Part shown: piece after piece, positions 20,931 to 41,745 of the stretch
How the letters are laid out: every line of letters starts with the position of its first letter
Numbering within the stretch: position 1 is the first letter of the stretch
Assembly: GCA_950295325.1 (NCBI GenBank)
Contig: OX485808.1
Coordinates: 32,697,180-32,761,179, forward strand
Direction of reading: 5' to 3'
Origin: Polytrichum commune
Lineage: Eukaryota; Streptophyta; Polytrichopsida; Polytrichales; Polytrichaceae
Length of the DNA stretch: 64,000 bases
The notes under the pieces: model-generated
What the model was told of the DNA's origin: nothing
Databases searched by the model: none
The model's input: the letters and a program-made list of their open reading frames with translations, nothing else
Position numbers and translations under genes: made by a program

Positions 20931-21049
20931 TGGGTTGAACAAGTATCTTGATCAGCAAGGCTTCAGTTTGGTTGGATATGGTTGTACAACCTGCATTGGA
21001 AACTCAAGCGAACTCCATGAAGTTGTTTATGAGGCTATTGCAGCAAACG
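20931..21049 (+). pseudogene. Captured aconitase exon (middle region)
   Basis: Between an AG acceptor and a GT donor the frame reads [20 protein letters not shown], then [19 protein letters not shown]. This is the aconitase region with the cluster-binding cysteine motif [12 protein letters not shown], roughly 150 residues downstream of the fragment at 19280-19641. Order and strand are as in the parent gene, so both could come from one captured aconitase locus. The usual GELDE reads SELHE. Confidence 0.85.
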
Positions 21050-21806: not shown

Positions 21807-23597
21807 TCAAGTCCTCCTCCTTGCAAGCTCTTTTATTGATAACATGCTGTTTGATTTGACCGGTTTGGACAATTCAACCACCCTTGTAAGATTTTTCACC
21901 ATCACAGTCTCTAAAGAGACTTCAACGTCGATGTCGTCATTATATTCTGTGTTACATGCCTCTGTTTCAACTTCATTGCTATTGAACAATGGTCTTACCA
22001 TGTTATCTAACATTGCTTGCTTTTGAAAGTCATTATCAAATGCTCTTAATAAACCTGTTTGTGTCCATCCTTTGCTAATCATGTCAGTCCTGCTTGAGAC
22101 ATTGATCCAAGCCTTGTAAAGCCAATGACATAAGTGAGGCTTTAACTTGCTCATTTTGAAATCCATTTTTATATCCTTCCCTCCTTTCAATTGGCTCGAA
22201 ATAGTGTCCATAGTAAACTTGTTAAATTCTTGGCGAAATGTATGCTTGAAAGGGCGTTGAATGACTACATCTGCTGGTTGATAAACACTTGTGCAGTTTG
22301 CTGGTATGTAGAGCACAAGAATATTAGGATGGTGTGTCTTCATCCAATCTCGTAATTCCTTGCTAATGTGCACACTCCAGCAGTCAATAAGCCATATCAT
22401 CTCTTGATTTGCTGGGAGTGCCATTTGTTGGATTTGTGCATCTAGGTAAGGTCGTAGGATCTTTTCAACAAACTCTTTGCATGTCTCTAGTGTAGACCAG
22501 TGATTGTAACTGTAGGAAATGTTCCATCCAGACAATTCACATTCTTTTCTACCCCCTTCAAGCTTAGGTAAAGTTTTTGTGGTGGTACCTTGGAAAATGA
22601 CTTGGAAAGGTAAGCAATGTCCGTTTGCTGCAGAAGATACAGTAACTGTAACTTGACGTTTGTCTTCTGTCCCATGTACTTTGATGTGTTTTGCTCCTTT
22701 AGTCTCCCATGTCCTTGATCCTCCTGTAGGAACTAAATGAATGCCTATTTGGTCAGAATTCACAACCAACTCCTTGGGTATGTTGTGGATTTTGACTAAG
22801 TAAGCACACCGTTGTGCCATTGTCTTGCCTTGCTCTTCGAAATCTTTTGGCAATTTACCAGCTGCAGTAGTTGCAGCTCTGTAACTCCAGTTCAGTTCAG
22901 CTTTCACAAAATGCTTTGTCCATTCATAAGATACTTTGAAGGCAGTAGAATGTGTACCCTCAAGGATATGCGGAGCTTTGTCAAGGATGATAGCCTTGAT
23001 CAATGGTTGGATACAAACCGCATAAAGAGGTTGCCCTGCCTCTCTCATCTTCTTCAAAATTGCACAAATCTCTTCTTTCAAGAGAGGGTGAGAGTCTAAA
23101 ATCGGACAATGTTGGGCGGATTTGGCAAAGTAAGTGCCAAATTCTACACATCGCTTGTATGTATCTTTCAACTCTCCATTTGGATGAAACCATTCTCTCA
23201 TGGAGCTTTTAGACAAATTGTCATACACACAAGAGAGATCTCCAGGTTTCCTATAGGCTGACCTCAAAAAATTCCATGCTCCTCCTATACTTCTATGTTG
23301 TTTCATTGCATTGAAAATAGGAGGCCATAGAATAGGAGTAAACCAATTTGTATAAGAACCTCTAACCTTCTTTGTGCCCACTGATCTCTTCATCTTCTCC
23401 ACCTTTGGCTTCAACAACACTCTCTCCGTTTGTCTTGGTCTGCCCACTGGCCGCTTGAAAATCTCTTTGATTGGCTTCGACTGCTCCCTCTCCAACCTCT
23501 GGTTCAAAGTAGAAAACTCCTTCTCAATTTCGACCCCCCTCTCCTCTCTTGTAATAGAAACAAATGCAAAATCTATTCTTTGTTGTTTAGGTGCCAT
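21807..23597 (-). CDS. Pogo/CENP-B-type (Tc1/mariner superfamily) DDE transposase
   Basis: The likely start is the ATG at 23597 (MAPKQQRIDFAF), because the 25 codons upstream in frame are hydrophobic and look like leader. The protein has about 596 residues. The N-terminal half is basic with an RPVGRPRQTER AT-hook-like stretch, followed by a CENP-B-like helical region (about 150-270). The DDE_1 catalytic core has VVNSDQIG near base 22754, WLIDCWSVH near 22384 and YQPADVVIQ near 22275, giving an intact D-D-D triad as in pogo and Jerky relatives. It would excise and insert a pogo-type element at TA. No stop or shift is visible, so it may be active or recently active. I could not define terminal repeats. 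Confidence 0.85.
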   Translation of the reverse strand: MAPKQQRIDFAFVSITREERGVEIEKEFSTLNQRLEREQSKPIKEIFKRPVGRPRQTERVLLKPKVEKMKRSVGTKKVRGSYTNWFTPILWPPIFNAMKQHRSIGGAWNFLRSAYRKPGDLSCVYDNLSKSSMREWFHPNGELKDTYKRCVEFGTYFAKSAQHCPILDSHPLLKEEICAILKKMREAGQPLYAVCIQPLIKAIILDKAPHILEGTHSTAFKVSYEWTKHFVKAELNWSYRAATTAAGKLPKDFEEQGKTMAQRCAYLVKIHNIPKELVVNSDQIGIHLVPTGGSRTWETKGAKHIKVHGTEDKRQVTVTVSSAANGHCLPFQVIFQGTTTKTLPKLEGGRKECELSGWNISYSYNHWSTLETCKEFVEKILRPYLDAQIQQMALPANQEMIWLIDCWSVHISKELRDWMKTHHPNILVLYIPANCTSVYQPADVVIQRPFKHTFRQEFNKFTMDTISSQLKGGKDIKMDFKMSKLKPHLCHWLYKAWINVSSRTDMISKGWTQTGLLRAFDNDFQKQAMLDNMVRPLFNSNEVETEACNTEYNDDIDVEVSLETVMVKNLTRVVELSKPVKSNSMLSIKELARRRT

Positions 23598-23944
23598 TGT
23601 TAAACCTTCTCTCATACACAAGCACAAGAAGATAGAAATACATACAAGAGTGGAAAGGGCTGACAAATACACTCTACAACAACTTAAGCAACATTAGGGT
23701 AATGACTTAGGTTTAAACAAGTTGGGCCGCCATAAACAGATGAAAAACACAATTAGGATGAAATTTCTGCACATCTTTCCCACCCTAAACATGAATGATT
23801 TTTAATCCAATAAATGAGAAGACGAATTTCAAAAAAATCTATTTTTGAAACGCGAACCTTATTTTTTCAAAAAAATTAAATATTCATGCGGCAGGTGGCG
23901 AACCTGCTATGGTTTCCGCGGAGACTAGGAGGCGTGAGGGTAAG

Positions 23945-23970
23945 GCCATGAGCTATGCGTAGCTCATGGC
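23945..23970. repeat. Perfect 11-bp hairpin
   Basis: GCCATGAGCTA and its reverse complement are separated by the four bases TGCG. It lies 70 bases from a perfect palindrome. Confidence 0.8.
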
Positions 23971-24040
23971 GTGGTGATTCTAGAATGCTCAAGACAACCT
24001 CAAGCGGAGGTGTGAGCTAGGAGTTATGGCCATTTGAGTG

Positions 24041-24064
24041 GGGCGCTGTCCCGGGACAGCGCCC
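24041..24064. repeat. Perfect 24-bp palindrome
   Basis: GGGCGCTGTCCC is followed at once by its reverse complement. It is GC-rich in otherwise mixed DNA. A chance origin is unlikely; it may be a structural site of the surrounding element. Confidence 0.85.
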
Positions 24065-24370
24065 TGGTATAGCAGTGCCTGGGAGTGATTCCCGGGACTG
24101 CCAAGGTTCAAACAGGCATAACTTCCTCAAGACTTGCCCGAATGGGACATGTGAGGAGTCCATCGGTATCTACGTGAATCGTAGATGAAGATGGAGTGGT
24201 TGGTTGTTATGATCAAACATCATACAAGGAAATTATGATGGTCTGAAGCTGGTGGGGGGGTTCTAGGCCCAACAGCTAAAGGAAAATGTCCACTTGACCC
24301 CAACTCTTGGTAGAGAGACAAGAGGTTGGTTGACGGTGGGGTAGGGGCCCTGTGATACCAATTTTTGGGC

Positions 24371-26640
24371 AGAATGTGTAATTTTTAGTCTTGAAGGGTA
24401 GACGAAAGACAAATTTCACTCAAGACTGTTGAGATAGTGAGGAATTAGGCGATTAGTTACTTAGAAAGGGAAACATGCAAGTAAGATAGAAATTTCCTCG
24501 CTACCCGTAGTACAGAAGATATCAGAAGTCATGTAATGAACATGTGACAATTAGTGATGCACTCTTGGTATCCCAGTTCTTAACAGATGTGACTCTTAGG
24601 AAGGGTAAATAGAGGAAGGAAGAAGACAAAAGAGAGTGAATCCAATTTTCTGAATATCCTCTCGTGAAGAGAGTGAATGTTTCCAACTTACTTTGAACTC
24701 TTGTAATTATCAATACATGGGTGTGAAACCCATTGTTTTCTTGTGAATCCTACTTGGAAATATAACAAGTTGTTTTTGAAGTCTACATCTCTTGTCAAGT
24801 GTATTCTTGTGTGTGTGGAAGTGGCGAGTCTTGTTAATTAATCTGAAATCAATGTGGGAGTGTGAAACTCCTGTGTGAAGGATTGTGAGAATTGTGTCAG
24901 TGTTAAAGTCAGTTTGAGCCAAGAATCTCTTGGACAATATCTTAAGGTTTCAACTACGGAGGAGTAATTCCTCAGTGATTATGAGTGTCCGGGTGTGAAA
25001 CCCAAGAATTTTATTGTGATACCTATCTGAACACCATCCCGACTATCATATTTCCCCTCACACTTAAATTTCCATGTCTGAGAATATTGTATACTCGAAA
25101 GTTGCGAAGTGCATTACTATGCGTGTGAGGAAGGGTGAATTTGGTCTCTCATGCATTTTCTTCCCTGAGTGTGAGACTCTTGTGCAAGGGACGTGTCTGA
25201 TTCACTCACATTAAGTCTAACCAAACAACTTCTAACACCTAGAGAAGGCGTCAGTAGATTCACTCAGGATAAGAACGTATACATTGAGAGTGTGAAACTT
25301 TCAATTAATTGAGGTGGAAACGTCAATATCATGAATCACATATGTCCACCCGGTTTACATTTAATTCTTTAAATGTCTTTTGAAGTATGGAAGTGTCTAA
25401 AGTTAGATAGGAGACTATGTTCTTTGAATACACTTATACTCGTTATTCTCCTATCGAATTATCCTCTTCTCTAGACTACTTCCTCGACACAGTTTTCTGT
25501 ATGGAAGTAGAATATTTCGTTGACTTCCGTGGTTGCCCTGTAAAGAGCACCAGACAAATAATCCTAGTTAGAAGTTCAAGTTGAACTCGAAAGCTATCAG
25601 TGTGAATTCCCGTAAGAAGAAGTGAGTTACCTTCTTCGGGAGTCTGCGAAATCTGCTCGGTGTGAGATCGCTGCAGATTAGGAAGAAATCCCTCTTGAAG
25701 GGGACTTGAGAAGGTGAACCTTCTACGAGGGATCAGCTATAATAATCGAAACAGGAAGATTAAAGATGAAGATTTTCGAGAATAAAGAGGAAACTGAAAC
25801 CTGGTGATGAAAAGGTTTCTCTAAGGACTGAAGCCCTTGACTTCCACGATCAAGATCGCGAGCACGGGGGAGAAATAAGATTGGTTCCTTTTGTTTGGTA
25901 GAATGGTGTACACAGATGAACGACGTGATTCTGTCAATTTAGATTTGCTTATGAAACTGATGGAGTAATCTCAACTCTGAGGAAACATCTGGATGCTGAT
26001 GGGAAGTAACCTCAGAATTAGGCAATGGAGAAAGCGTAAATTAAATCCCAATTACCAGGAGAGATGCAAATTCAGTACCCGGAGTGAAGAAAGGAGCAGT
26101 CGACGCGCGAGGAAGAGAATCTGCGTAGCTGTGAAGGGAAGCAGGGAGGAGTTATCCCATATCGATGGGGGTAGCTAACAAAGGCAGGTATAAAACCTAT
26201 CTCTCTACAGTGGCTAATGTAACTAGACGTTTCTCTGATACTCCAAGATGATTACTGGTTACTAGTTACTGGGCACTGTTACTAGACGTTTCTCTGGATA
26301 CTTGTGACTAGACGCTTACTTGGAATTGGGTACTAGACGTTTACTTGTGACTTGGCACTAGACTGTTACTGTTCTGACCCGGTCCGCTTCAGACGCTTCC
26401 CTCTTCGTTCCCGGTTCGTGGTTCTGTCACTTGTAACTAGACTTTTATTAAAAATTCCCTAAGTCCTAATTTTTACAAGTATAGAAACGTGTTAAATAGT
26501 ATCATTGTTTGAGTAATGAATAAATTTATTTGTGATAAGTGTGTGACAAGTAAGGTCACATGAGAATGGATTAATTGTGATAATTAAGTGTCAAACTCAT
26601 TCCATCACCCTTTTGAACTATCAATCGACCTTATCGTGAC
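24371..26640 (-). mobile_element. Probable long LTR (about 2.27 kb) of an LTR retrotransposon fossil
   Basis: Read on the minus strand the segment starts TGTCACGATAAGG and ends near TCTGCCCA. Five bases later comes TGGTATCACAGGGCC (about 24362-24348), close to the usual primer-binding site for initiator methionine tRNA. TG...CA ends and a tRNA site are what a 5' LTR should show. The body has no coding region and repeats the phrase GTGTGAAAC several times. No second LTR or pol genes were found; the inside seems replaced by the pogo-type transposon. It is a fossil remnant; limits are approximate. Confidence 0.45.
26215..26450. repeat. Short irregular tandem repeat with ACTAGACG core
   Basis: The motif ACTAGACG, mostly followed by TTTCTCT or CTTACTT, recurs about five or six times at uneven spacing of 20-60 bases. 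It lies inside the probable LTR, near its 5' part on the minus strand, where enhancer-like repeats are common. Confidence 0.6.
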
Positions 26641-28570
26641 AAACTAAAGATACATCTGACACTCATTTAGTCTTCCCTGGGTGTTTTTTGAGCTGGAACC
26701 CTGGATGGAAAAACTAACTACAGGCCCCGCGTAAAGTCCTAGAGGCTTATATGGGTGAGGTGGTGTGGCCTTACCCACCCGAGGCCGAACGGCACGGCCT
26801 CCATGGGCTTTGGCCCAATGTGAGGCCATAGTTGCTTAGTATGGTTCGGGTTGTTGTAGTGTTGCTCCGGCAATGCGATGATCAACATAGGATTGGACTT
26901 CCATGGATGGAAGCCCACATTTGGGAATTGGTTACCGATTAAGGGGTGAGTCCCGAAAGTAAAGTAGGAAGGTTGGTTCCCCTCCTATGAACTATATGGT
27001 CCGGGGTGGGAGGAGCTAACCATTAGCATGGCGGAATGCGAAGGGTTAGTGCTCGTAACCTTTGCTAGAATTGAAAATTGGCAAGATTGTCAAAGGGGGC
27101 TAGCAAGGGTTGCGACAATCTAGCTCGGGTGCGGAATGAGGCACCGCCTCCTCTTGTGATTTTGGAACCTTAAAGTACATAGAATGTGATTTAGAATAGG
27201 CAACAATGTCGAGATGGGAAATCAATAGCAGTGACATGCAGAATAACCAAATTGCCGCCACAGTATTGACATTTTGGGTCGCAGCGGCTTTGACCGCATA
27301 CATAGAAATGGTTTTGAATGTGTAGATCGTTGCATGGAGGAATGCAATACATCTTGAAAGACAAACAAGGATATACCTTAACTAGAATTGTATTTTGGAA
27401 CATAATGGGAGTTTTGGCGTTAACATCAATGGCACCGAAGCTTTGAAACTAAAGTTCTGTAGACATTGGAAATGGAGATCGCAATGTTGCACAAAAATGC
27501 GAGTTCTCAGGTCAATGTCATGCTGGTCATTAGAACAAGGCAAATGTCATTTTCATTGCCATAGTAAACCACACGGCAAATCCACATGTAGGGGTGAACG
27601 CCAGAAGCATGTGCACCTATCTATGGAGATCCCGAATTGCCAAGCCAGCTGCCGCCAACCTCTCCCTCACGACATCAAAAGGGTTGTGCAATGCAGCGAG
27701 GGGCACGCGCCGTGGCAAACTGTCGAAGCCAACATCATTGTCCCAAAGCATGCACAAAAGAGAGCGCCCCAATTCATGGGACTCCAACTCTCGCTCTGAG
27801 TCGAAGCGGAGCATGAGAGCCCGAAGATTGCTGCAATCCTCTTCCAACTCCCACTTGCAGTACATCTCCACAAGAGGAAGAAGCTACATGCATGTGGTCC
27901 GGATCACATGATGGGAGGGAAGAGGGAAATGAACATGTCGTTGCCATACAAGCCGCGGTACACATCGGAGGGCATCAAAAACCATCCATAACATCCAAGC
28001 AATGAAGCAGACGTTGCCAAAAACAACAACAAACATATGCAAAAACCCAAATACTGGAGCCAATCCACGAACCTAGTTTGGATTCACGGAATTCGGCCTC
28101 ATGTTGTAACGAGTGTGAATAGTAAGCGTAATAAAACAACTTGTACCCTTCCCAATAATCCTGCACCCTACAAACATACACCTGGAAGTCAATGTGCCAC
28201 ACACTCAAATATGAGAACACCACGAATCACTCTCAAAGTATCCATACCAACGAGCGTGCGTTTGCAGATACGGAAATGACAAACCAGCACATGGCATGCT
28301 AGCTAGCCCTGGAAGGTCCCCCAATCAACCAAGGCTTACCATTGCAGCTCTCGCACCCAACCCCTCGTGGGCAGCAGCTATGTTTTGCACCCTCCCCACA
28401 CAAACACATACCAGAAGCATGCAAGATTTGAGAGTATAGTTTGCCAACTCCAAGCACATAGCTTGTGGTATTTTGTTGACAACAAACGGACACCCCATAT
28501 GCCATGGAAACTGGGGCAGAAGCGAATCCCATTGCCAATGGGTACGGAAAATTTGCAACCACAGACGGAG
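26641..28570. other. No recognised gene; AC-rich from 27.4 kb
   Basis: 26641-27400 is mixed DNA without a family match. From 27400 to 28570 the plus strand is AC-rich as at 3-6.8 kb and 39-41.6 kb. A minus-strand frame at 27871-27617 (RFDSERELESHELGRSLL and on) has more normal codon content than its neighbours but matches nothing I know. Confidence 0.45.
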
Positions 28571-28676
28571 TGTCGTGTAAATAGCGATCGTGTGTCACTG
28601 CAGCTCGAGTACCAACCACCACTAACAAACAAAACTAAAACATAGCAAAGTCACACATAAACAACACACCTCGACA
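28571..28676 (-). repeat. 106-bp direct repeat, left copy (LTR-like ends)
   Basis: This unit begins TGTCG and ends CGACA, and is repeated at 29012-29117 with one mismatch seen. The short inverted ends and the poly-purine tract next to the right copy (on the minus strand) make it look like an LTR or part of one. Between the two copies lies the 334-bp repeat. Confidence 0.8.
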
Positions 28677-29010
28677 GAGAAGGAAAAGAATAGAACACTC
28701 ACAATAGCTCTAAATCTCTTCAAATGCACACAAATTAGTCAAGCTATCTCTCACTCCACCAAGGGAGAATCCAAGAGTGTAAGTAGGGGAAGAAGAACTC
28801 AAGATTTATTGCAAAATCATGCAATCTACACCTCACACAAACTCTCTCCACACACTAACTCACAAGACTTGACTTGGCAAGAATGCCAAGCCAAGGAGGA
28901 GGCTCCTCACTTAGGAGCCTTCCTCTCCACATCTAGATTCATCCATCCAAAACTAGATGGATGAAACCCAACGGATAAGGTGCGGCCTTCGACGCCGCAT
29001 ACCGTGACAG
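28677..29010 (-). repeat. 334-bp repeat R1, left copy
   Basis: Nearly identical to 38680-39013 in the same orientation. On the minus strand it begins TGTCACGGTATGCGG. The copy at 38.7 kb lies on the far side of the Ty3/gypsy element, so R1 may be, or contain, its LTR; however the 106-bp repeats sit between R1 and the internal region here. A diverged relative lies at 8867-9340. Confidence 0.85.
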
Positions 29011-29011
29011 C

Positions 29012-29117
29012 TGTCGTGTAAATAGCGATCATGTGTCACTGCAGCTCGAGTACCAACCACCACTAACAAACAAAACTAAAACATAGCAAAGTCACACATA
29101 AACAACACACCTCGACA
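29012..29117 (-). repeat. 106-bp direct repeat, right copy, adjacent to polypurine tract
   Basis: Second copy of the unit at 28571-28676. On the minus strand it starts TGTCGAGG directly after a G-rich polypurine tract (29118-29130), the position expected for the start of a 3' LTR. Confidence 0.75.
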
Positions 29118-29429
29118 TGCCCCCCCCTCAGCTGACTATGGAGTCCCGCCAAGCAGCTAGGACCAATGCCAATCTAAAGGGCATGGATCATGAAAGATTG
29201 CTCCGCAACTAACTAGTGTGGTAAACGTTATTCCAAGGAACTGTAGGCTGGGTGCAAGGTGAGCCCCATCCTTAATCGCCTCTGATGTTTGGCCATCAGA
29301 TCCCACCGCCTCATGTTGATTGCGTCTCTAAGCCATAACTCTTCATTTTCCATTTGGACAGACACAAGATGATGAAAACCACACAGGATCATTGAGTACA
29401 ATTGGTGGAAGCACCAAGTACCGAAGATC

Positions 29430-29580
29430 CTCGACAGCGAGGACAACTCCACTGTCCAGATGGTAGAGAAGTCAAGGGTGGCCGCAAGCATGCCATGTGC
29501 CAACCGCGTTGACACTGATCACACAAGAGCATAGTAGCCGCTCCCTTCTTCTCTCCACACACAAAACATGGAAGACCCTC
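29430..29580 (-). other. PHD finger at the integrase C-terminus
   Basis: CFVC, eleven residues, CDQC, QRGW, H-x2-C, fourteen residues, CPRC: a full Cys4-His-Cys3 PHD finger with the usual Trp after the fourth Cys block and QW before the last pair. PHD fingers bind histone H3 tails. Many plant Ty3/gypsy integrases end in a chromodomain that guides insertion; here a PHD finger occupies that place. The targeting role is inferred. Confidence 0.9.
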
Positions 29581-30049
29581 TGGTACGACGGCCAGTTCAG
29601 GATGAACTGTACCCTCAATAGGTAGATGACATTGGGTACAGTTTTTGGAATGCTCGCGACATTCCCTGCCATCCTTGCCTTCCAACAACAACAAACCACT
29701 TGACAACACCTCCTTCACCCGAAGGATAGTGCGCCCCGCCCTGACATCCAATGTCGTAGGCGCCTCACGTTGAAGATAAACATAATCCCCTTGCCGAAAT
29801 CTCTGCAACTGAGGCCGGTAAGCACCACTACGAATGCGTGCATAACGCAATGTGTCACGGTGCTGAGCAATGGACAAATTCTCCATGGCCATAGGCATGG
29901 CCCTCTGGAAGAATTGAGCCCGCTCCTGCAAACACTCTGCCCAAAGGTCTGGGTCATCCAAGTTCACAACAGGAGCTAGTTTTTCCCGAATAGAACTCGG
30001 GAGTATAGGCTCACGTCCATACAATAATTGATACGGGTTGTAGGATGCC

Positions 30050-30680
30050 AAAGAGGCCTGCCTACTAAATCGATAGCCCATAGCAATCCATGGCAACATA
30101 AGGTCCCAATCCCGGTGGCTTCCCCGAAGTAATCCATACTTCCTCAAGCCACGCTTGGTTGTCTGAACAACCCGTTCAGCCAAGCCATCTGCCTCCGGAT
30201 GATCCCGAGAGGTGGTGCGGTGATCTATGAGAGCCTTAGTGCACAACTCCTCAAAAGCACCAAGGAACTCCTTCCCTTGGTCCGTCAACACCTCAGCTGG
30301 TGCTCCAAAACGTGCTAACACACGATCCAAAAAGGCGGCCGCGGCCAACTCTGCAGAGTTCTGGGGTAGAGCAACAAGCTCAATCCACTTGCTAAAATGC
30401 TCCACCATCACCAAAACGTATTTTGCTCCACGTGGTGTAACCACCAACGGCCCTGCAAAGTCTAGCGACCAACGGTAGCCTAATCCCATGATAGGTAAGG
30501 GCTGTAACTGAGGTGATAAGGTGTTAAAGCTAGACCTGACCCGGTCACAAACTTCACACCTCCCGACATATGCAGCCACCTTCTGATACATGCCAGTCCA
30601 CCAATATTGGCCACGCAACATCGAATGTGTCATGCGTATGCCAAAATGGCCAAGTTCCTCGTGCACTTGTCGCACCAAGG
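30050..30680 (-). other. Integrase domain of the element
   Basis: The zinc-binding HHCC region reads HEELGHFGIRMTH then CEVCDRVRS (about 30665-30540). The core shows DFAGPLVV near 30465, LTDQGKEFLGAF near 30275 and the E of LAERVVQTTKRG near 30170, a complete D-D-E set. Coordinates are rounded. Confidence 0.9.
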
Positions 30681-31159
30681 AGGCCCTCTGATCCGGCCTA
30701 GGAACAATACGCCTTGTCCCATCCGGCCACAATTGGAATAACAAACCGTTTTCCCAACGGAACCTTGTTATTCGATGTCCAATCCTATCCCTTTCCATTG
30801 CCGAAATAGACAAAGGAAAGGTACCCTGTTGAAGCTTATGCAATACGGGAAGATCCTCCCATATATCCGCAATAGCTTGAGGCCGATCAGTCTCATCATC
30901 CGAGCCCTGTATCGGAATCTCAACAGATGCACCAGCAAATAAAGTGAGGTAGGCAGCCGCGTGCCAACCTGGAACCGCCTCTCGATCACAATCTCCATGC
31001 CACCTGGCCCCGGTCAAGTCCTCATCCGAAGGACTTGGATTGCGTGAGAGTCCATCTGCATCCATGTTGGTAATCCCAGCACGGTGTACCACCTCAAAGT
31101 CATACTCCTGGAGCAACAAAGCCCACCTGGCAAGCTTGCCAATAAGCTTATCCGACTCC

Positions 31160-31400
31160 ATGAGCCACCGTAACGGCTGATGGTCAGTCACCAAAGTAAA
31201 GTGCTGACCATAAAGATACGGCCGAAAATGGGCAATAGCCCATACCGCCGCCAATGCTTCTCCCTCATAGGACGAATAATTGGCCTCCGCCGTGTTGTTG
31301 CTTCGCGACGCGTAAGCAACAACATACTCCCGGCCAACGTCATCTTTCTGAGTAAGAACTGCTCCCAAACCCAATGAACTACAATCTGTATGCAACTGGA
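31160..31400 (-). other. RNase H domain of the element
   Basis: DCSSLGLGAVLTQKDD, YASRSNNTAEANYSSYEGEA and LVTDHQPLRWL are the conserved RNase H strands with the acidic residues D, E and D. It follows the reverse transcriptase directly. Confidence 0.85.
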
Positions 31401-31499
31401 AAGATTTGGAGACATCTGGACGTCGAAGCACTGGAGCCGTACCCAGTTTCTGCTTCAATGTCTCAAACGCCTATTGTTGCTCACGACCCCAAGTCCACG

Positions 31500-32420
31500 G
31501 TTGGTCCTTGCTCGTGAGAATGATGAGAGGCTTGGCGATCAAGCTAAAGTTCTTGACGAATCGCCGATAGTAATTCGCCAAGCCCAAGAAAGCACGAAGT
31601 CTCGGCACATCAACCGGTGCCGGAATCTTCTGCAAAGCGTCCACCTTAGCTTGCTGTACCCCAAGACCTCCTGGAACAATCATATGCCCCAGATATGCCA
31701 ACCGGTCATGGAAAAACTTGCACTTGCCGTGGTGCAAGCGCAGTCCCCACCGCTGCAACCGTTCAAAAACGGCTTGCAAATGCCTCACATGCTCCTGTGA
31801 AGTTGTGCTGAAGATGATCACATCGTCTATGTAACACCGAGCAAAGGGCAAGCCAAAGAGAACCTGATCCATCACCCGTTGAAACTCAGTGGGTGCATTC
31901 TTCAGGCCAAATGGAAGAAACTTCCAATGATAAAGTTGATCTTTCCCATCTTGATCAACTCCCCAAAATGCGGTCTTCACCCGATCTCCCGTAAGTAATG
32001 GAAGTTGGTGATATCCGGATCTCAAGTCCAAGGTGCTAAAGACCCGAGAAAATCCGATGGCATCGAACAACTCCTCCGGGATCGGCATGGGATACCGATC
32101 CGACTTGGTCTTCCGATTAACTGGACGGTAATCCCCACACATCCGCTTCTCCGTCCAATTGCCAAAGATATCCTTCTTCGATGGCATAACCGTAACACAA
32201 GCATACTCCCCGTTGGAAAGTTCGATTAGCCCTGCTGCCAAGAGCTCTCGGCAATGAGCCTGAACGCCAATCCGCTCGGAAACACTGAGCCTGTAAGGTC
32301 TCCAAAAAATGGGATGGTCGTCCTCCAACTGAATGTGGATGGGTTTTCCTTTATAACCTTCAAGATCCTGAAGGCTAAAAGCAAAACATCTACGGTACAA
32401 GCGAATAAATGCCCATACCT
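31500..32420 (-). other. Reverse transcriptase domain of the element
   Basis: Typical Ty3/gypsy RT: YRLSVSERIGVQAHCRELL, CGDYRPVNRKTKSDRYPMPI, FSTLDLRSGYHQLPL, FGLKNAPTEFQRVMD and the catalytic box YIDDVIIFS near 31825. Coordinates are rounded. Confidence 0.9.
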
Positions 32421-32859
32421 TCCGTGCCTTAGCACCAGTGAGACGAGGGCCTAATTCAAGTGGCCAATCATCAAACTCTGTGGTCTCCCTTTCCACTAGA
32501 AGAGAGCCACCTGATGCTGGCACGGACTCTAATTGCTAATGAGAGGAGGGGGTATTAACTATGCCCCCAGTCTCGGTGCTTACACTAGAGTCTGACATTT
32601 CTTCATCACCACCAATATGTGATGATGAAGCCACCACCGGAGGCGAAGAAACCGAAGCGGTGTAAACATGTTGAGCTCGAAGCTCCTCCATCATATGCTG
32701 CTCGAATTGAAAAATTCGTTCGACTTCTCCAACCATGGCATGAATTCCCTCCTCCATGGGTGTGGACCGCTCTGCCCCCTGACCAGAGTCCTCTGCCCCC
32801 AGAGACAACCACTGGTCACCATGATGCCTTTGCAATGAAAGGCATAAAGCAACAGTCCA

Positions 32860-33810
32860 CACCATGGTATGAAGATCCATAGCTTGGCCCAACACGAAGC
32901 GTCGTTGGCCCTCAGAAAGGCCGGGAGCTGTAATGGTGCCAGTGCGGAATCCCATGGCACGCTCCCGTTCGTCAGCCAATGGTTTGGTGTGGGTTTTGGT
33001 GTGAACATCCCACACCATACCCGGCCCCCTATCGCGGAAAGCGAATGACTGTGGAAACGTCATAAATGTGGGAAATGCCCACCGTGGTGCCCCCATTTTG
33101 TTGACCAATTCCAACGGGGGTAAATCATCTCGAACAACCGGCAAAGAAGTCTGGTTTGGATCCAAGATGTCATCCACCTTTTGATCCAAAGGTGGAGGCA
33201 CTGCAGAAAATGCTGCAGCTAAAATAGATGACGGTGCGAGGTTGGTCCAAATCCACCGAGGCCGGTGGGCATAAGAACCAATGCTCGCGGCATCCACAAA
33301 AATGGGATTTCCAAGGTGTTGACGAACATAATAATCGCCTTTCAACACCTTGTCCCGAGAGTCTCCCAACAATGGTACATTCTCGAAGATATACCCTGGC
33401 GGGGTATGTTGGTGGGAAAACCACCACTGCATGAGGCGGATGAGGTCCCAAAATAAATTAGACCTGGGATGCTCTAGACCTCGGCCGGCTCCAGCACGTG
33501 AATGGCCCTGGCATGGCCATCCCGCAATCACCATATCCACCGGACCTAAGTGTCGTAAATCGGCCTCACTGATGAGTGTGACATCACGAGGGAGACGTGA
33601 AAAACACCCACGAATGGCAGTTGGAGGTAACTGCTGGAGGTACAATACCATCAATTGGTGAAGATGGTGACGAGCCACATGGGTGGACACTTGAGAGTTG
33701 TCCACATAGACATACCGTCTAACCGTGAGGCCAACCTCCAATACGGCCGCTAAGCCTGTGCCGATGCCCCCAAACAGTTCCACCAAAGTAATTCCCGCGT
33801 CTAGCGGCTG
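32860..33810 (-). CDS. C5-cytosine DNA methyltransferase domain inside the retrotransposon
   Basis: Transfers a methyl group from S-adenosylmethionine to cytosine in DNA. Motif I is VELFGGIGTGLAAVLEVG near 33780 (cofactor site). Motif IV with the catalytic cysteine is AGWPCQGHSRAG near 33512. Motif VI is YIFENVPLLG near 33380. Motif VIII is HRPRWIWTN near 33250. Motifs IX-X are LADERERAMGF near 32960 and RRFVLGQAMDL near 32900. The order is canonical, not the permuted order of plant DRM enzymes, and the PCQ form is as in Dnmt1/CMT and bacterial enzymes. It is fused in frame after the protease, upstream of the reverse transcriptase. It could methylate the element's own or related copies. No targeting domain other than the PHD finger of the same element is seen. 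Confidence 0.9.
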
Positions 33811-34199
33811 CCATAAAATGGGATGTGCCAATGCCGAGAGGACACCCGGTATAACCGGTGTTCTAGGAATGAGAGAGTGAACAATATCTTCGCACCTCCG
33901 AAATAACTCGGCGGAATCACGCCAAGGACGAAGGGGATCCTTGGGATGGCGCACCAATGCATTCTTAGGTGTCATATCCCGTTGATCGTCTGTACTCCCC
34001 ATGAATGCCAATGACTCCTCCAACAATGCGGAACCATAAGGCAATGTGTCCACCATAGCACCACATCCAAAAACCATAGATAATGGTGCTATGGTTGCGG
34101 CCGCCGCGAAAGCAACGGGAATAAGTTCCCTGCGGCCATCCCCAGCCGACCAACCTGGTCGGATCCACGCCTCCTCAGTCCAGTTGTCCAAACCAAAAC

Positions 34200-34560
34200 C
34201 AAGAGGGTAAAGTGCTTGCTGACCAACTAAAATGTCATAGTTGGTCGCATCCGTCACCGCACACCTAAGAAGAAGAGGTGCGGGTGAATCTTCAGGCTTC
34301 ACTCGGAAGCTAAGCTGTAATGGCTCGCAAGTATAACCCATGGCCCGCTCCACGTGAGCAATGGATGTGACAATGGTGAATGGACAGGGAGCCAAATCCT
34401 CGGCCGTCAACCTCAACTCTTGGGCAAGCCTCTTGCCGATCATAACTGGTTGTGCCCCTGAATCCATCATCACACAACGGGGAGCAACCCGAGTAGCGTT
34501 GCTCCCAGTGCGACTGACCACCAAAATTCCGGTATCATTCACCATACGCACAACGCCGGG
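34200..34560 (-). other. Aspartic protease domain of the element
   Basis: The active-site motif MDSGAQPVMIG (DSG type) lies near 34460, with ILVGQQALYPLGF near 34220 as the usual C-terminal ILG-like strand. It would cleave the polyprotein. Coordinates are rounded. Confidence 0.75.
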
Positions 34561-35329
34561 TCGAATGCCGCGGCGTTCGCGGACATGTCTAGCAGCGACA
34601 TTAGACAGATAGGCTGCACCCGCGGATACTGGGTAGTCATAAGACGTGGTCGGTGCCTTGTCATCTGAGGCATGTGTGTCAAAAGACGCAATGGTCTCTG
34701 CCGCAAGTCTCGCTCGCCGTTTGGCCACATCCTCAAGATCTTCAGAAGCAGGGATGTCCGTAGTGGCTTGAGCCACGGTCAGAGAAGGTAAGGATGCCTT
34801 CCCTTCCAAAATCCTACCTACTAAGTGAAAAACCTTAGCAGGTTGAAACTCTGGCGATGACCACTCCATGGCCGTGAACAAAGGTGTGTACAACACCTTG
34901 GATGCCAACGTGTGCGCCACATCGGTCGTTGAATGTGAAACCTCATCGTTCGGATGACGACCACTGACAGATTGGACGGCATCGGCCAATCCAAAAGATA
35001 ATGGTAGTCGTGCCTGACCAATTTGGTCCGCGCGCGCATTGTCCCGAGCTCGCGAGCTTGCCACATATTCATTTGTGGTCGAAGGTATGGATTGTGACAT
35101 GGCTTGAGCACGTGTCACGGCCGCGGAACTCACCACCTCGCCCGAGGCTCCGAACATATAGTAATCCGGAGTGGAAGAACTAGCCTGAGCTCCGGAGGAA
35201 GACGGTGAGGCCAAAATTTGGCCGGATGACGCCAAACTTTTAAACCTCTCCTCCATGGCTCCAATCTTTGCCTCCAACGTCTTCTCCCGGTCGGAAGAAG
35301 GACGTTTCTCAAGATGGAGAGCGAAGCAG

Positions 35330-35530
35330 TTCTCCACCACGTGATTGTTCCGCCCACAATGAGAACACTTCAACTGTTTGGGTAACTGATTACCCGTCCC
35401 CTTCGTCGAGCCCTTAGCGGGAACAAATGGTTTCCGCTTCGGAGTAGTGACGGTCTGGGCTTGCCTATGCTTCGAAGGACAATCCTTCTTAGCATGGCCC
35501 GCCTGTCCACAAGACCAACAATGCAAGATC
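35330..35530 (-). other. Two CCHC zinc knuckles (nucleocapsid)
   Basis: CWSCGQAGHAKKDC near 35500 and CSHCGRNNHVVENC near 35355 are two C-x2-C-x4-H-x4-C knuckles, the RNA-binding part of Gag. They lie about 35-40 residues apart, joined by a basic linker. Confidence 0.9.
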
Positions 35531-35549
35531 TTGTCCACCTCTGCCTCCG

Positions 35550-36600
35550 CCAACCCCGCAGCCGCAACCGGAACCTTCCGGGATTTGCTAGAATCCACTA
35601 GCATGGACACCAAGTCAGTGGCGTCGTGCTGATACAAGGCACGATCACACTGCTCAACAATGGCGAAAGCTTCCGCAAGTGTCGCTCGGCCATCATGATC
35701 CATGATGATCCTGGGTAAAGCTAAGTCAATGAGGCGTTTGCCAATCTTTGACAAAAACACCTTTACCAACTGGCTCTCGGCGAAAATACCTCCAGATTCC
35801 CTGACAAACCTCGCCAACCTCGTGTACATGGTACGAGGTGTGTCATCTTTCTCCCGTCGAAAGTCCTGGATACTCTGCATTTGATCGCGGCGGAAGCCTC
35901 CATATTCCTCCTCCAAATGGAGTTGGAATTCATGTAGAGGATCAAAACCCGGCGGAGCTCCTAAAGAAGCTAATGCCGCCTGGGTAGCCTGGGCATAACG
36001 TGACAGTGGAAGAATGGGGCTCGAGATACTCGCCGCTGCGGGAGCTTGGCCCTGAGCCGTGGGATTGATAGGAAAAGCTCCCTCCACATCCACCTCATAT
36101 ACTCCCTCCTGTACCTCCAGAACGGCCATCAAACTGGAAGCTGCGCCTTCCTTCGATGCGGATACTAACTCAACCCGAGTTTCCCAGTATCGCTCAACCT
36201 GGCGCAACTCCATCCAATGAGCCTCCGTCCACTGCTCATAAGTATGGAGAGCCTCATGCTCCAAATGTTGGAGAAGAAGCTCGAACGCATACCAATCGTT
36301 GAAATTGGTATTCCGTTGACGTTTCTCCCTCATCCATGTCCTGAACCGGATTTTCCAATCTTGCAAGGAAATGGTCCCTGCTCGACTAGAAAATCGGTCT
36401 CGAATGCCGCCTCTTGACTCCTCCTCCATCTCGTCGAAGGATCCAACCCAATGGACGTAAGACCGAGTGGCAGTCCCCCACGCTGAAGTAGGCTCAAAAG
36501 CCTCGTCGGGTGCTACCACCGGTTCACTGTCCAAAAGGTCTGAGGATCGACCTTGTGATGATGCTGGAGACGGCGAACGATAATGTTGGCTCCGCGTTGT
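35550..36600 (-). CDS. Gag region of the Ty3/gypsy element
   Basis: Capsid-like region with the retrotransposon Gag signature: EFQLHLEEEYGGFRRD, YTRLARFVRESGGIF, then VKVFLSKIGKRLIDLALPRI. The N-terminal part is Ser/Pro/Glu rich with DWKIRFRTWMREKRQR. It would build the virus-like particle in the cytoplasm. Coordinates are rounded. Confidence 0.8.
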
Positions 36601-36617
36601 AACCATAAACCCGCAAT

Positions 36618-36637
36618 GGGTTCGGTCACTGGAGCCA
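36618..36637 (-). other. Candidate primer-binding site of the Ty3/gypsy element
   Basis: TGGCTCCAGTGACCGAACCC on the minus strand is complementary to a sequence ending GGGTTCGGTCAC...GCCA, which looks like a tRNA T-arm and CCA end. It lies only about 12 bases before the Gag ATG, which is short. The tRNA identity is not determined. Confidence 0.35.
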
Positions 36638-36640
36638 ACA

Positions 36641-38157
36641 ATCTAAACTAATGTGGTATAAAAGTGAAGGGTAAAAGACAACATGCACCTGCAAACACCA
36701 CCAAACTTATGGTCTGCTGGTCATCAACCCAGCCTCACCATAAGGAAAACAAGCACCATCCACTTGGTGCACACACAAGGGTCTCGTCGGTCATTAATCC
36801 GACCTCACCCCCACAATACCCTATCACAATCTAGAACAAACAAATTGGGGCAATGTTGGAAGACTCCAACACAACAAGCCCACCACAGGGGGAAGGTACC
36901 ACAACAAAATGCAAGGAACAATGCAATAACAGCAATGGATTCTCTTCCCCAAAACAACACTAAAACAAAAAAATGAAAAACGACTGCGACCAACCGGCAC
37001 CCGCCTGCGGTTGGTGGTCAAAATGGAGAGTCCCTGTTGCTTAAGAAAAGAAAATACACATCTCTCATTTTCCCACCACTACCTAAGAATCTCTCCTCAC
37101 ACCAATGCCGGGAATATGTGTTGATAAACACAATTCGACCCTAATAATAATTTATTTTAGGCCGAACGGAATTCCCCATGCCACCCAATTCCCAATGACA
37201 ATCTCTCGGCAATCCCTATAAGAAATCCCGAATACCTTAATATGTAATAAGAGGTTTAGGGTTCATCTTATATTCTTGATTAATGAAAACAAGAAATTAA
37301 CCTCTTAGAGAGAAAAGAAAAGATTAGAAGTTGAAGAGAGTGAGAATAAAGTGAGAAGGAAGAGAAATATTAAAAAATAAAAAAATAAAAAAATAAAAAA
37401 TCCGGTTTTAAATTAATTAAAACAAAAACAAAAACAAACATATAACCGGTTGGACTTACAAACACACGGGTCTCAACCGCTTAAGTCCAACAAGCTCCCC
37501 GATCAATCCGATATCCCTGCTGCCAGGAAGGCAGCCAAAACTCACGGGTAGGTCACTTAGTGCATTTTAAAAACGACGTGCAGCATAATATAGAGAGGAT
37601 TAAAATCATTTGAAATAAAAATTATAAAGGAATTCCAAATAATGAAGGGACCATTAAATGTAGACAATCCCATTATAAGTAAGTTAGATGGACATAAAAT
37701 GTGGGCCATTATTTTTTGTAAAATTAATATAGGGGCTGAAGATAAGGATCCTAGAAGGTATGTTTAGTATGTTTGCTATGGTCTCTTATGTGTTTTCTTC
37801 ATAACTTTATTTGCAATGATATTACTGTTTGCACCATTCTTTGTTTCCATGGTTTCCCTTAACACTCGTCAATGCGTTAGGAAATAGATTAGCTTTTATT
37901 GCTTAAAAGGAATATAGAGTACAAAAAATTGCAGTGACTTGGACAATATAAGTAATGGAAGGGTGCAAAAAAATGGGTCATTTTTGAAATTTAAGTAATT
38001 ATAGGGAGGCTTTAATTTAGCCCTTGAAGGTAAATAGCCCCAAAACAAAAAACCCCCAGCCGCACGTGGTGCACAAAAATGCCTTAGAGTGATCTACCCG
38101 TGCCAGAACTTCAACCGGTGATGCCTAAAAATCTCCCTGCTCGTCTGCTGTCACCAA
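36641..38157. other. Region upstream of the retrotransposon genes, no gene
   Basis: If the primer-binding site is right, the 5' LTR should begin here, but I find no match to the 3' side. A low-complexity AAAAAAT/TAAAA stretch lies at about 37369-37402. Short pieces with CCGGTTGGACTT (37445-37500) and CTTCAACCGGTGATGCC (38108-38125) belong to the small repeat family described at 46926 and 62835. Confidence 0.45.
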
Positions 38158-38380
38158 GCCGAGGTAGCGCAGCTGGTTGGCACCCTGTGCCACTGTTGCA
38201 GAAGTCTCCGGTTCGAACCCGGGCTCGGCCGGGTAGCGGGATAGCGAGGCGGGCAGCGCGGCGGGTATGGAGGCTGGCCAGCAAGGATTGCTAGCCACCG
38301 AGCAGAGGCGGCCAGGAGCTCCGGCTCCCAGAGCCGGCTCTTGGCTTCTTCTAAATTTTATTTTTTAAATTTTATTTTGA
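38158..38380 (+). mobile_element. tRNA-derived SINE
   Basis: The first 72 bases fold roughly as a tRNA: GCCGAG pairs with CTCGGC at the ends. Box A (TAGCGCAGCTGG, 38165-38176) and box B (GGTTCGAACCC, 38210-38220) of the RNA polymerase III promoter are perfect matches to the consensus. The anticodon loop lacks the usual T33 and the D stem is weak, so it is not a good tRNA gene. A GC-rich body follows to about 38345 and ends in a T/A-rich tail (AAATTTTATTTTTTAAATTT). This is the build of a SINE. No target duplication was found. Confidence 0.7.
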
Positions 38381-38679
38381 ATGAATGGATTGTTTCCGAA
38401 TACAAACAAGAATAGTTCCTCACAACTCAATGCTGTGAATTCAAGCTTGCAGGCAATCAATTGACATAAAATTCCATGGAGAATTCAACATCTTATCACC
38501 ACAATTCACCTTCAAGTGACCTTCACAAGCAAGCATTCTTCATGTTGCTTCACAAATTCGCGGTGTTCTCGCTCCGGAACTTCACAACCTCGTTACTCCT
38601 TGTCTTCACGCCCTCCCTTGCGCATTACATCTCAAAAATGAAGAAGAAAACATCAAAGATGAAGCATTTCTTGCCAAGT
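38381..38679. other. Spacer between SINE and repeat R1, no gene
   Basis: No coding family is seen. On the minus strand this directly continues repeat R1 and may be the rest of a longer LTR of which only R1 is shared with the left copy. Confidence 0.35.
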
Positions 38680-39013
38680 GAGAAGGAAGAGAATAGAACA
38701 CTCACAATAGCTCTAAATCTCTTCAAATGCACACAAATTAGTCAAGCTATCTCTCACTCCACCAAGGGAGAATCCAAGAGTGTAAGTAGGGGAAGAAGAA
38801 CTCAAGATTTATTGCAAAATCATGTAATCTACACCTCACACAAGCTCTCTCCACACACTAACTCACAAGACTTGACTTGGCAAGAATGCCAAGCCAAGGA
38901 GGAGGCTCCTCACTTAGGAGCCTTCCTCTCCACATCTAGATTCATCCATCCAAAACTAGATGGATGAAACCCAACGGATAAGGTGCGGCCTTCGACGCCG
39001 CATACCGTGACAG
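38680..39013 (-). repeat. 334-bp repeat R1, right copy
   Basis: Nearly identical and co-oriented with 28677-29010. It starts TGTCACGGTATGCGG on the minus strand and lacks the 106-bp units that flank the left copy. It lies beyond the 5' side of the Ty3/gypsy element. Confidence 0.85.
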
Positions 39014-41745
39014 GAGTCACAAAACGAGGTTAGGCGCATGAACTGCAACAATGTTTGTTCTGTCTGCATTGTGCCACATCCATGAGCAAAAACTAAATGT
39101 ATGTTTGATTCCACGTAGGCCCAGAGAAATGGCCGAAATGCCACGCACACAGAAGGTGAACGCTTTGCGTGAAGGTGGGGGGGAGGGAAAGTGGAGGCAA
39201 AGAAAGCCTTATGGTAGAAGAATGACACTGGCATGATTTCTCCTACGCCTCGCTGCCGACGGGACAGACATGCGGAAATATAGACCACTGTGAAGAGGTG
39301 GCACGAGGATATGAAGAATGTGCCCAAACAAATACCACATGGGGATGACATGAGGATTTGAAATCATGTGGTCGATACTTGCAGAATGCCTCCACAGGGC
39401 ACCACACCCCATCTATTAGACGCAGGATTGACATCCGCAGAGGTGGCATATTATGCATTCTACCGACTCTCAATGCAGGAAAACCTAAAGCAAACTTTTT
39501 GTTTCGGTGTCCCCTCCACAACTGTGGGAGAGAGGCATGACACCATTGTAGTTCGAGTAGCATGCACACCAAAGTGTTCATTTCAAATGTAAGCATCATG
39601 CTGGGCTTAACCAATACAGTCAAGGAAAACAAGATTTTTTCACACCATGCGGTGGTACACGTAGTGGGGGTGGCAGCAAAGAGCAGAACCAAGATGCAAT
39701 GCAAGAACAAGGAATCACATATGAATAAGAAATGCGAACAAACGACAATACAAATTTCCTGCGCGGGATTCAATCCGTGAAAGTATTTTATAAATGCAGA
39801 ATGAGTCATTCCAGATGGCTTGCAGCAATTGCACACTGCACAGAGCAAAGATCCCTGCCTGAACATGTGCACGATTGCAACTGCCATAGTACTTGAAGAC
39901 AATAAGAGTGTGCACAACATTGCACACAACACCGGCAACATGCCGCGATTGAGAGCCATGGGAGGGGCAATCCAGGAGCCTTTCCTTTGCCTATTCGAAT
40001 TGAACCCATTTGCAGTGCTGCAAGAATGTGTTCTTGTCACAACAGGTTGAGAAGCCGGGCCGGGAACGGAGGGCAGAGCTACAATTAATTCCGGCCCAAA
40101 ATGTTGGGCAGACCCTGCCATACAGACCGCCTGCAGTGCACAAGATACAGCAGAAGCACGATTCGTAGGCGAATGCGGCAGAGCGAAGCCCATAAACCAC
40201 CGCAGACATTGGATGACATCCACATGCAGCGCGGAAGAAATGCAAAGCGGAGCTGGAGTCCCACCGATATTGACAGCAAATAAAAACTGCAAACGCACAA
40301 AAATAACCCAACATTGCTCCACACAGACGAAGCCGCCATCCCAAAAGCGGAGGCCAGAGGGAAAACATCGGGTGAACATTCGGTGCAGAGACGTTTCCGA
40401 AGCCAATGTCTCCACCAGCCTGTTGCCGAGTCCACAATTGCAGTGCATGTTCAGTTCTTCTAGTTGCCGAGAGAAACACCACGATATGTTGAAAACCCCC
40501 GTGAGGTCGCCGGCGCGGCCTTGGCGAAACATTCCCATAGCCCTCGCGTGGACAATCACGGGAATGTCTCTGGAAAATCAAATCTGCTGCGTTTTGATGT
40601 CGTTTTGTGGAGCTTTCCTGTGCTCGTTGGCGCCAGTTGCCGCCGAGGCGTTTGAAGCACCGCCATGTGGACCTACAGCAGGAGGTTTCGATCCTCTCTG
40701 GCTTCAAAGAGAGCCAATTCTATTGTCTTCGGCAGCAGGCACCGCCATGGTGGCCGGGCCTACATGCATGGAAAATGAAGATTGTACAAACAAAAACGTT
40801 GTTTCAACTACCGGCCGTGGAGGATGGAGGAGGGAAAGGGACAGAATGAGATACTGTGTTGTGGCGCAGGAACTAGAGAGGAGAGGATATCCTAGGGGTT
40901 GCCCGGGATGGCATTGGCATGCGAGAGCAACGACAGATTGCAGCATGTCGCGCCCCCCGGCATAAATGCGACAAGTTGTGCCTGGTCCCCCGGAATCGGA
41001 ACGGAACCCCAATTGCTTGTCCCTCAGTCGAAGGGATGCGCGGTCGAGTGTGCTGGCCAGCCATTGCTTCCACGGAGCAATGGAGCTAGGAAGTCGCAGC
41101 CTACAACCGGTCTTGGGCAGCAATTTGCCAGAGCACCACAAATTGCCCCACTGACAGCAAGTAGAATGCTCCCACACGCATATACAAACGCTCACACCCG
41201 AACACAAAATCGTGCACCCACAGACCCAGGCGAAAAGAAGAACCACAAACTACTCACCCGAACTGCAACTCCCGAAGTTGACGGTCAATTGCAGTCGCAA
41301 TCGCTTCCTCCATGTCATTTTGCACGGATGTGGGAGCGTGTGAGGTCCGAAATCGCCGCAGCGTGCGAGACCAGAAACCACTGGCGCGTGCAAGGCGTGA
41401 AGCCGTGGGAGGCGACAAGCCAACGGAGCGTGCGGAGCGATGGATGGGGATGGATGAATGTCCGGGGTGCTCCAGTGCATATCCACCCGGTGCGGCCCCC
41501 CGTCATGGACCCGGCCCATGGACTAGGATAGCACCCTACCTGGCCTGGAGCTTCCGGGCCGGAAGCTTCCGAGCATAGTCCCAGCCCAGCACCACATGGT
41601 GCGGCCAGGCCCTAAGAAGAAGAAGAAGTTGCCTGGCACATGCTCACGAACTATGTACCTCTGATATTATTATTTACGGGCAGAAACTCAGTTCACTTCA
41701 CATTCGCCAACAAAATCAAACACTGGAGATTCATAATCACGTCAC
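39014..41745. other. AC-rich block, no gene recognised; GC-rich hairpin near its end
   Basis: The plus strand is rich in A and C and poor in T, which yields long open frames on both strands (for example 40559-39243 minus and 40213-40965 plus). Their products are Cys/Val/Leu rich or Arg/Thr rich and match no family. A hairpin with the 7-bp stem GCTTCCG and loop GGC lies at about 41549-41565 in a GC-rich stretch. The block resembles 2.7-6.8 kb and 27.4-28.6 kb. Confidence 0.45.

Follow-up and report, generated by a model that had tools for sequence, protein, structure and literature searches.

A split-repeat Ty3/gypsy-type retrotransposon of Polytrichum commune encodes a DNMT3-like methyltransferase and a C-terminal PHD finger

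A 64,000-nucleotide stretch of the Polytrichum commune genome (assembly GCA_950295325.1, contig OX485808.1, positions 32,697,180 to 32,761,179 of the forward strand; here denoted the window) carries a Ty3/gypsy-type retrotransposon whose polyprotein includes both a DNMT3-like cytosine methyltransferase and a PHD finger. This pairing had been claimed in an earlier note made from the letters of the window, and the two domains do lie in one gypsy polyprotein. We give an even chance to the reading that this is a young element with split repeats, of the kind described as KnitGypsy-Dnmt3 in Klebsormidium nitens, whose methyltransferase is made at the level of Gag and acts on complementary DNA (cDNA), and whose PHD finger tethers integration. 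The puzzle addressed here is why a retrotransposon carries the type of enzyme that usually marks such elements for silencing. The available text of the 2018 study of such elements calls the role of retrotransposon DNMTs unclear (PMC5890265). Production of the methyltransferase at the Gag level would point to cDNA methylation within the particle as the answer, and a putative reader of histone H3 on the integrase offers a second, independent angle, that of where copies land.

The coding part is a single minus-strand frame running from 36606 to 29389, with 2,405 codons, two in-frame TAG codons that divide it into three open reading frames (ORFs), no frameshift and a final TGA stop. Along the frame lie a Gag region with CCHC knuckles, a protease, the methyltransferase, a Ty3-type reverse transcriptase (RT), RNase H and integrase, and the C-terminal PHD finger; the Pfam families recognised were DNA_methylase, RVT_1, RT_RNaseH, Integrase_H2C2, rve and PHD. 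The label Gag rests on position and knuckles, because Pfam recognised no capsid family in the first 367 residues; one knuckle scored slightly below the Pfam cut-off (20.2 bits vs 20.8) and the second was seen by eye. The protease was assigned from a DSG motif, backed by a Pfam match that fell below threshold (E=0.0056). For both the RT part (E=9.2e-49) and the RNase H-integrase part (E=9.1e-42), the nearest solved structure was the Ty3-G Gag-Pol polyprotein (7q5b), and the Ty3-type RT together with the order protease, RT, RNase H, integrase agrees with the Ty3/gypsy type proposed in the earlier note. The integrase triad is present (D2049, D2109, E2144), with 34 residues between the last two; the usual spacing is 35. 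Pfam matches up to E=10 in ORF1 and the RNase H-integrase-PHD part included no chromodomain, and those of the three ORFs included no tyrosine recombinase family. Scans of viral contigs with the methyltransferase, the C-terminal part of pol, the RT and two DNA patterns found no relatives, nor did the scan of genome contigs, and Rfam gave no match at the gathering score.

The assignment of a methyltransferase held up, as all five motifs named in the earlier note lie within ORF1, together with a Pfam DNA_methylase match (E=1.4e-12 to 1.1e-11). A PDB comparison with a limit of E=1 gave 49 sequences, headed by DNMT3A (6e-12), with DNMT3A, DNMT3B and DNMT3C filling ranks 1-29. They were followed by 4onj (7.6e-7, 'DNA methyltransferase'), which we take to be a plant DRM, and 3g7u (8.5e-6, 'Cytosine-specific methyltransferase'), presumably bacterial; further matches were HaeIII (2.9e-4), DRM2 by name (7.5e-4) and HhaI (1.7e-3). 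The DNMT3A alignment covers frame residues 939–1125 and motifs I to VIII in linear order. DRM scores are partial here because DRM enzymes are permuted, with motifs VI-X ahead of I-V, whereas the motifs of the element follow one another as I-IV-VI-VIII. By similarity, which was best to DNMT3 among solved structures, and by motif order, the domain is DNMT3-like. We take LGQAMDL, by eye, to be motif X; it lies outside the Pfam match, which spans profile positions 48-120 of 324, and beyond the DNMT3A alignment. That the catalytic motifs are kept despite a great distance from known DNMT3s would argue for long selection. A prokaryotic or phage origin of the methyltransferase was dropped, though without a tree; the 8 phage records listed of 597 are 22.8–30.1% identical to it along a part of its length. 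Among the records listed, the best E-value was 9e-10 against phages (8 of 597) and 2e-5 against plasmids (8 of 307); the rows were sorted by coverage times identity, so that better E-values may stand among the others, and E-values are not comparable between the two databases.

The first TAG, between the methyltransferase and the RT, has the leaky context of tobacco mosaic virus (TMV), UAG-CAA-UUA. The part of PMC2754532 available to us describes CAR YYA as essential for TMV readthrough, gives CAA UYA as common to TMV and beet necrotic yellow vein virus, and reports readthrough of the TMV sequence in plants measured at 32%. Within the frame, 7 of 2,404 codons are followed by CARYYA; across both strands of the window this holds for 5 of 1,586 TAGs, the first TAG included. 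The stability of the 110-nt hairpin window at this stop was equalled or exceeded by one of 474 windows of the frame. The second TAG (31471–31473), in the link between RT and RNase H, is followed by GCGTTT, and its window ranked 297 of 474 (z -1.9, 11 of 300 shuffles as stable). Both stops, at 32536-32538 and 31471-31473, were omitted from the earlier note. The leaky context and the hairpin suggest that the methyltransferase is probably translated with Gag, at its level and not at the low level of Pol. The second TAG is probably a disabling change that leaves this copy defective, because no readthrough context is found there. A host code in which TAG encodes glutamine was dropped; the frame has 112 CAA or CAG codons, only 2 TAG and 0 TAA. 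TAG and TAA also serve as the final stop of 2 ORFs each among 8 others checked.

At the C-terminus of the integrase, the PHD finger is complete, as claimed before, with the full Cys4-His-Cys3 set of ligands. PDB searches gave 113 PHD matches up to E=0.01, and the best 60 of the 113 include CHD4, PHF12, Lid/KDM5, ATXR5, UHRF1 and AIRE, proteins whose PHD fingers bind unmodified H3. Readers of H3 trimethylated at lysine 4 (H3K4me3) carry a tryptophan two places before the PHD histidine; the element has a glycine, not a tryptophan, at this cage position (CDQCQRGWH). From these features we infer a possible reader of unmodified H3 (H3K4me0 type). A PHD finger can serve as a tether, as the fusion of the ING2 PHD finger to the integrase-binding domain of LEDGF, described in the available text of a review (PMC8149907), makes such a tether workable in design.

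The boundaries of the element were defined by BLAST of the window against itself. Two repeat pairs were found, A (38680–39013 and 28677–29010, 99.1%) and B (29012–29117 and 28571–28676, 99.1%); we set A at 333 bp because the final base in both BLAST matches of A is part of the target-site duplication or of the junction. On the coding strand the order is A1, leader, ORF, polypurine tract, B1, A2, B2, that is, split direct repeats (A-coding-B-A-B) instead of the two identical long terminal repeats (LTRs) that surround the internal region of a Ty3/gypsy element, and the A2/B2 border is seamless. The copies of A differ at 3 of 333 positions and those of B at 1 of 106, in total 4 in 439 bp and all transitions; because the copies are ~99% identical, the insertion is probably young. 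Both outer ends are flanked by GGAG, a short target-site duplication as in Ty3/gypsy elements, for which a chance 4-mer match at fixed ends has a probability of 0.0046. The DIRS type, with a tyrosine recombinase and no target duplication, does not fit an element with an rve/H2C2 integrase and a 4-bp duplication. The earlier note placed the element at 29118-36640, a range that takes in the coding part but neither the terminal repeats nor most of the leader. By eye, we recognised no tRNA-complementary primer site after A1. Two other arrangements were rejected. Ordinary LTRs beside a primer site at ~36640 were not supported, as comparison of 36640–37500 with 28–29 kb gave only one 21-nt match (95%), outside the element; the TGG stretch at ~36640, judged by eye, is not like a normal tRNA 3' end; and a 106-334-106 block taken as a separate small LTR element has flanks of its own (CGGAG vs TGCCC) that share no target duplication, in contrast to those of the complete element.

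The CpG ratio is 0.74 in the element (28571-39012), above the 0.50 (18000-28570) and 0.61 (39013-60000) of its flanks, which fits a recent arrival in a genome that is methylated. The leader, 36607..38679, has no frame longer than 102 amino acids on either strand. An exact 18-nt direct repeat (37349-37366 and 38676-38693) encloses ~1.3 kb of it and may mark a nested insertion, and ARAGORN found a tRNA-Ser-like sequence in the leader at 38157-38231 (+), perhaps the head of a short interspersed nuclear element (SINE). A relative of part of repeat A, 75% identical and on the opposite strand, lies at 9126-9288, where a related element may be present.

In the mechanism that we propose, most ribosomes would halt at UAG-CAA-UUA and yield Gag-protease-methyltransferase, so that the methyltransferase would be packed in the particle at about the level of Gag, and a minority would read through to make RT-RNase H-integrase-PHD as a minor product. 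Within the particle the methyltransferase would methylate the new cDNA; the PHD finger, recognising H3 with unmethylated K4, would then tether the integration complex to silent chromatin, the role of the chromodomain in chromoviruses. The split repeats combined with a DDE integrase pose a replication puzzle of their own. If the polypurine tract precedes B and a primer site follows A, the product of standard reverse transcription would be [BA]-internal-[BA], and closure of this product to a circle followed by a cut at one B/A border would give exactly A-internal-B-A-B. A circle cut at the B/A palindrome GACAGCTGTC, together with a DDE integrase, would explain how A-coding-B-A-B ends come with a 4-bp target duplication. 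We regard as doubtful that the chain holds in its entirety, namely a capsid-level DNMT3-like enzyme made through a TMV-type leaky stop, cDNA methylated before integration, a PHD-tipped integrase directed to H3K4-unmethylated chromatin, a copy that arrives silent-looking, and integration by the DDE integrase from a circle cut at GACAGCTGTC. The earlier note had proposed a two-domain system that aims at a chromatin state and then methylates the new copy. The pairing stands, the system itself being conjectural. One domain precedes and the other follows a probable leaky stop, and since the polyprotein also encodes a protease, each probably becomes part of its own mature protein instead of the two forming one reader-writer enzyme.

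Several observations weigh against the reading of Gag-level methylation and PHD tethering. AlphaFold, run on the single sequence of the methyltransferase, returned a mean pLDDT (predicted local distance difference test) of 32.9, and the fold past motif VIII is unsupported. The integrases of Ty3 and prototype foamy virus (PFV) are each one residue longer in the D–E interval of the alignments. Around the first TAG a wider window reached z -3.55 (0 of 200 shuffles), and other strong hairpins exist in the frame, with z <= -4.8 in 2 of 148 scanned windows. The best 60 of the 113 PHD matches are a mixed set that also includes KMT2C/D, DPF3 and KAT6A, and the histone preference is a prediction from sequence. 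The copy itself shows decay at the second TAG, and the whole analysis covers one element copy. The retrotransposon DNMT of K. nitens gave no methylation in yeast, a result its authors considered inconclusive, and methylation of SymbioDIRS cDNA upon reverse transcription, which the same authors thought likely, was argued from a DNMT on the Pol side, not the Gag side (available text of PMC5890265). Within such a particle, a Gag-side enzyme would be present in more copies than a Pol-side one.

Other explanations were weighed against the same evidence. Both TAGs might be simple disabling mutations of one gag-pol frame, the leaky context being coincidental; this concerns the stop only and is compatible with any of the other readings. 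Each TAG is one C-to-T step from CAG, and the 4 differences between the repeat copies are transitions without exception, a pattern that methylated cytosines would leave. We nevertheless consider it rather unlikely, since the first TAG combines the TMV-type hexanucleotide with a hairpin window matched or beaten by a single window of the frame, at a spacing of 9 nt, and the second TAG contrasts with it in following hexanucleotide, rank and z-score. It is improbable that both domains are chance passengers, picked up and now decaying in a broken copy. The TAG in the RT-RNase H link, which lacks a readthrough context, and the integrase D-E interval, short by one residue, would fit such decay; the frame nevertheless runs through its 2,405 codons without frameshift or further stop, both domains are complete, and the repeat copies have only their 4 differences in 439 bp. 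In addition, K. nitens has a DNMT3-bearing gypsy element with the same kind of repeat layout, and a ratio of nonsynonymous to synonymous substitution rates (Ka/Ks) below 0.2 is given for its DNMT in the available text of PMC5890265.

The remaining two explanations concern the job of the enzyme. The earlier note had suggested that the new copy is kept methylated, perhaps to hide from stronger silencing. In this view the methyltransferase is made from the element in the nucleus, acts after integration and (re-)methylates the new copies, or else rival elements, which are then tolerated; this appears unlikely to us. DNMT3 enzymes are de novo methylases, which agrees with such a role, as does the CHH and CHG methylation on silent elements, for example KnitGypsy-Dnmt3 copies. 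The latter is taken from the available text of PMC5890265. Against this role, the enzyme is in frame with Gag and protease, upstream of the probable leaky stop, which would place it in particles, and hosts methylate retrotransposon copies anyway. The methyltransferase might instead have lost or changed its catalytic job and serve as a nucleic-acid-binding part of Gag or in RNA modification, which we judge quite unlikely: the PF00145 match covers only the part of the profile given above and the K. nitens enzyme was inactive in the inconclusive yeast assay, yet motif I, PCQ, ENV, HRPRW and a QAMDL motif are all intact. The coordinates of the features are given in Table 1.

Table 1. Features of the retrotransposon (window positions)
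Feature	Position	Strand	Basis
Whole element, A1-leader-ORF-B1-A2-B2	28571..39012	-	repeat arrangement and flanking GGAG duplication
Target-site duplication GGAG, left	28567..28570	.	equals 39013-39016
Target-site duplication GGAG, right	39013..39016	.	equals 28567-28570
Terminal repeat A1, 333 bp, starts TGTCACGG at 39012	38680..39012	-	99% identity to A2
Leader; possible nested insertion 37367-38675	36607..38679	-	frame scan
ORF1, 1,356 aa: Gag region, CCHC knuckles 35479-35520 and 35326-35367, protease DSG 34450-34467, methyltransferase	32536..36606	-	Pfam and motifs
DNMT3-like C5 methyltransferase region	32758..33849	-	Pfam, DNMT3A match, motifs
Motif LFGGIGTG	33754-33777	-	within ORF1
Motif PCQGHS	33499-33516	-	within ORF1
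Motif FENV	33376-33387	-	within ORF1
Motif AHRPRW	33253-33270	-	within ORF1
Motif LGQAMDL, frame residues 1239–1245	32872-32892	-	within ORF1
First TAG in TAG-CAA-TTA, between ORF1 and pol (TAG 32536-32538)	32530..32538	-	sequence; CARYYA context
Stable hairpin, begins 9 nt past first TAG	32421..32526	-	-51.1 kcal/mol, z -4.8, 0/300 shuffles
RT region up to second TAG (31471-31473), with YIDD at 31822-31833	31471..32535	-	RVT_1 4.5e-30; Ty3-G Gag-Pol 9.2e-49
RNase H, H2C2, integrase core and C-terminal domain, D,D(34)E	29602..31470	-	Pfam; Ty3-G Gag-Pol 9.1e-42
PHD finger at C-terminus of integrase, residues 2347–2391	29434..29568	-	Pfam E=5.5e-11; PDB PHD matches
Polypurine-tract-like GAGGGGGGGGCA, immediately ahead of B1	29118..29129	-	sequence
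Repeat B1, 106 bp, TGTCG...CGACA	29012..29117	-	one difference from B2
B1/A2 junction palindrome GACAGCTGTC (border CA-GC-TG)	29006..29015	.	sequence
A2, internal copy of the repeat, with AATAAA (position 200 of A)	28677..29009	-	repeat comparison
Terminal repeat B2, adjoins A2 without gap; outer end CGACA at 28571	28571..28676	-	repeat comparison

Elsewhere in the window, a DDE_Tnp_4 transposase (57-1508, +) and a protein with a Myb/SANT-like match slightly under the cut-off (2130-2657, -) form a pair that we take to be of PIF/Harbinger type, and a long DDE_1 transposase ORF at 21807-23672 (-) is presumably pogo/CENP-B-like. A pair of inverted repeats of 1.45 kb, 97.9% identical, lies at 15270-16715 and 47611-49061, and further direct repeats, in two pieces, at 4359-5072 and 42608-44008. 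A PLAC8-family gene fragment was found near the element; GC is 43.3%.

Parts of this architecture recur in several known systems. In animal DNMT3A and DNMT3B the ADD domain, a PHD-like H3 reader, stands in one product with the catalytic region; the element likewise has a DNMT3-type region and a putative H3 reader, but a stop separates the two and their polyprotein includes a protease. CR1-like long interspersed nuclear elements (LINEs) reportedly carry a PHD domain, as the title of Kapitonov and Jurka, 2003, has it; they too have a PHD finger in a retrotransposon protein, but are non-LTR elements, and that title names no methyltransferase. In chromoviruses the integrase ends in a fused chromatin reader; in the element a PHD finger takes that C-terminal place, and no chromodomain was matched in the parts named above. 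The available text of PMC5348765 likewise places a chromodomain next to the integrase (INT). DIRS/PAT elements share the A-coding-B-A-B layout and differ from the element in its Ty3-type DDE integrase and 4-bp target duplication.

No LTR retrotransposon with a PHD finger turned up in our literature search, which fell short of most subscription journals, Repbase and supplements, and none is described in the available parts of PMC9915684, PMC10799480, PMC8149907, PMC6875170, PMC7472088, PMC5408684 and PMC3747384. For Zygnema SAG 698-1a, whose genome consists to 73.3% of repeats, the accessible text of PMC9915684 reports an expansion of the PHD family by a factor of at least 9; streptophyte algae may harbour more transposons with PHD fingers than have been published.

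The closest relatives in kind are the methyltransferase-bearing retrotransposons of the 2018 study (de Mendoza et al. 2018, PMC5890265), for which we rely on the available text. SymbioDIRS-Dnmt3 and SymbioLINE-Dnmt of dinoflagellates also carry cytosine methyltransferases, and SymbioDIRS-Dnmt3 methylates CG in yeast; they are DIRS elements with a tyrosine recombinase or LINEs, whereas the element has a Ty3 integrase. KnitGypsy-Dnmt3 shares with it the Ty3/gypsy domain set, a DNMT3-type methyltransferase in the polyprotein and DIRS-like repeats, the Fig. 4c legend describing the K. nitens gypsy-Dnmt3 repeats as structured like those of a DIRS element, A-coding-B-A-B. The precedent in Klebsormidium cited in the earlier note was right, and the shared repeat layout makes it closer than that note could know. 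The two differ in that the DNMT of KnitGypsy-Dnmt3 lies in the Pol ORF and that of the moss element in ORF1, before the probable leaky stop; the main text on KnitGypsy-Dnmt3, figures and supplement apart, has 0 occurrences of a PHD finger. A DNMT in a split-repeat gypsy element is already known from K. nitens, and what is unusual here is its pairing with a PHD finger and the signs of a methyltransferase made at the level of Gag.

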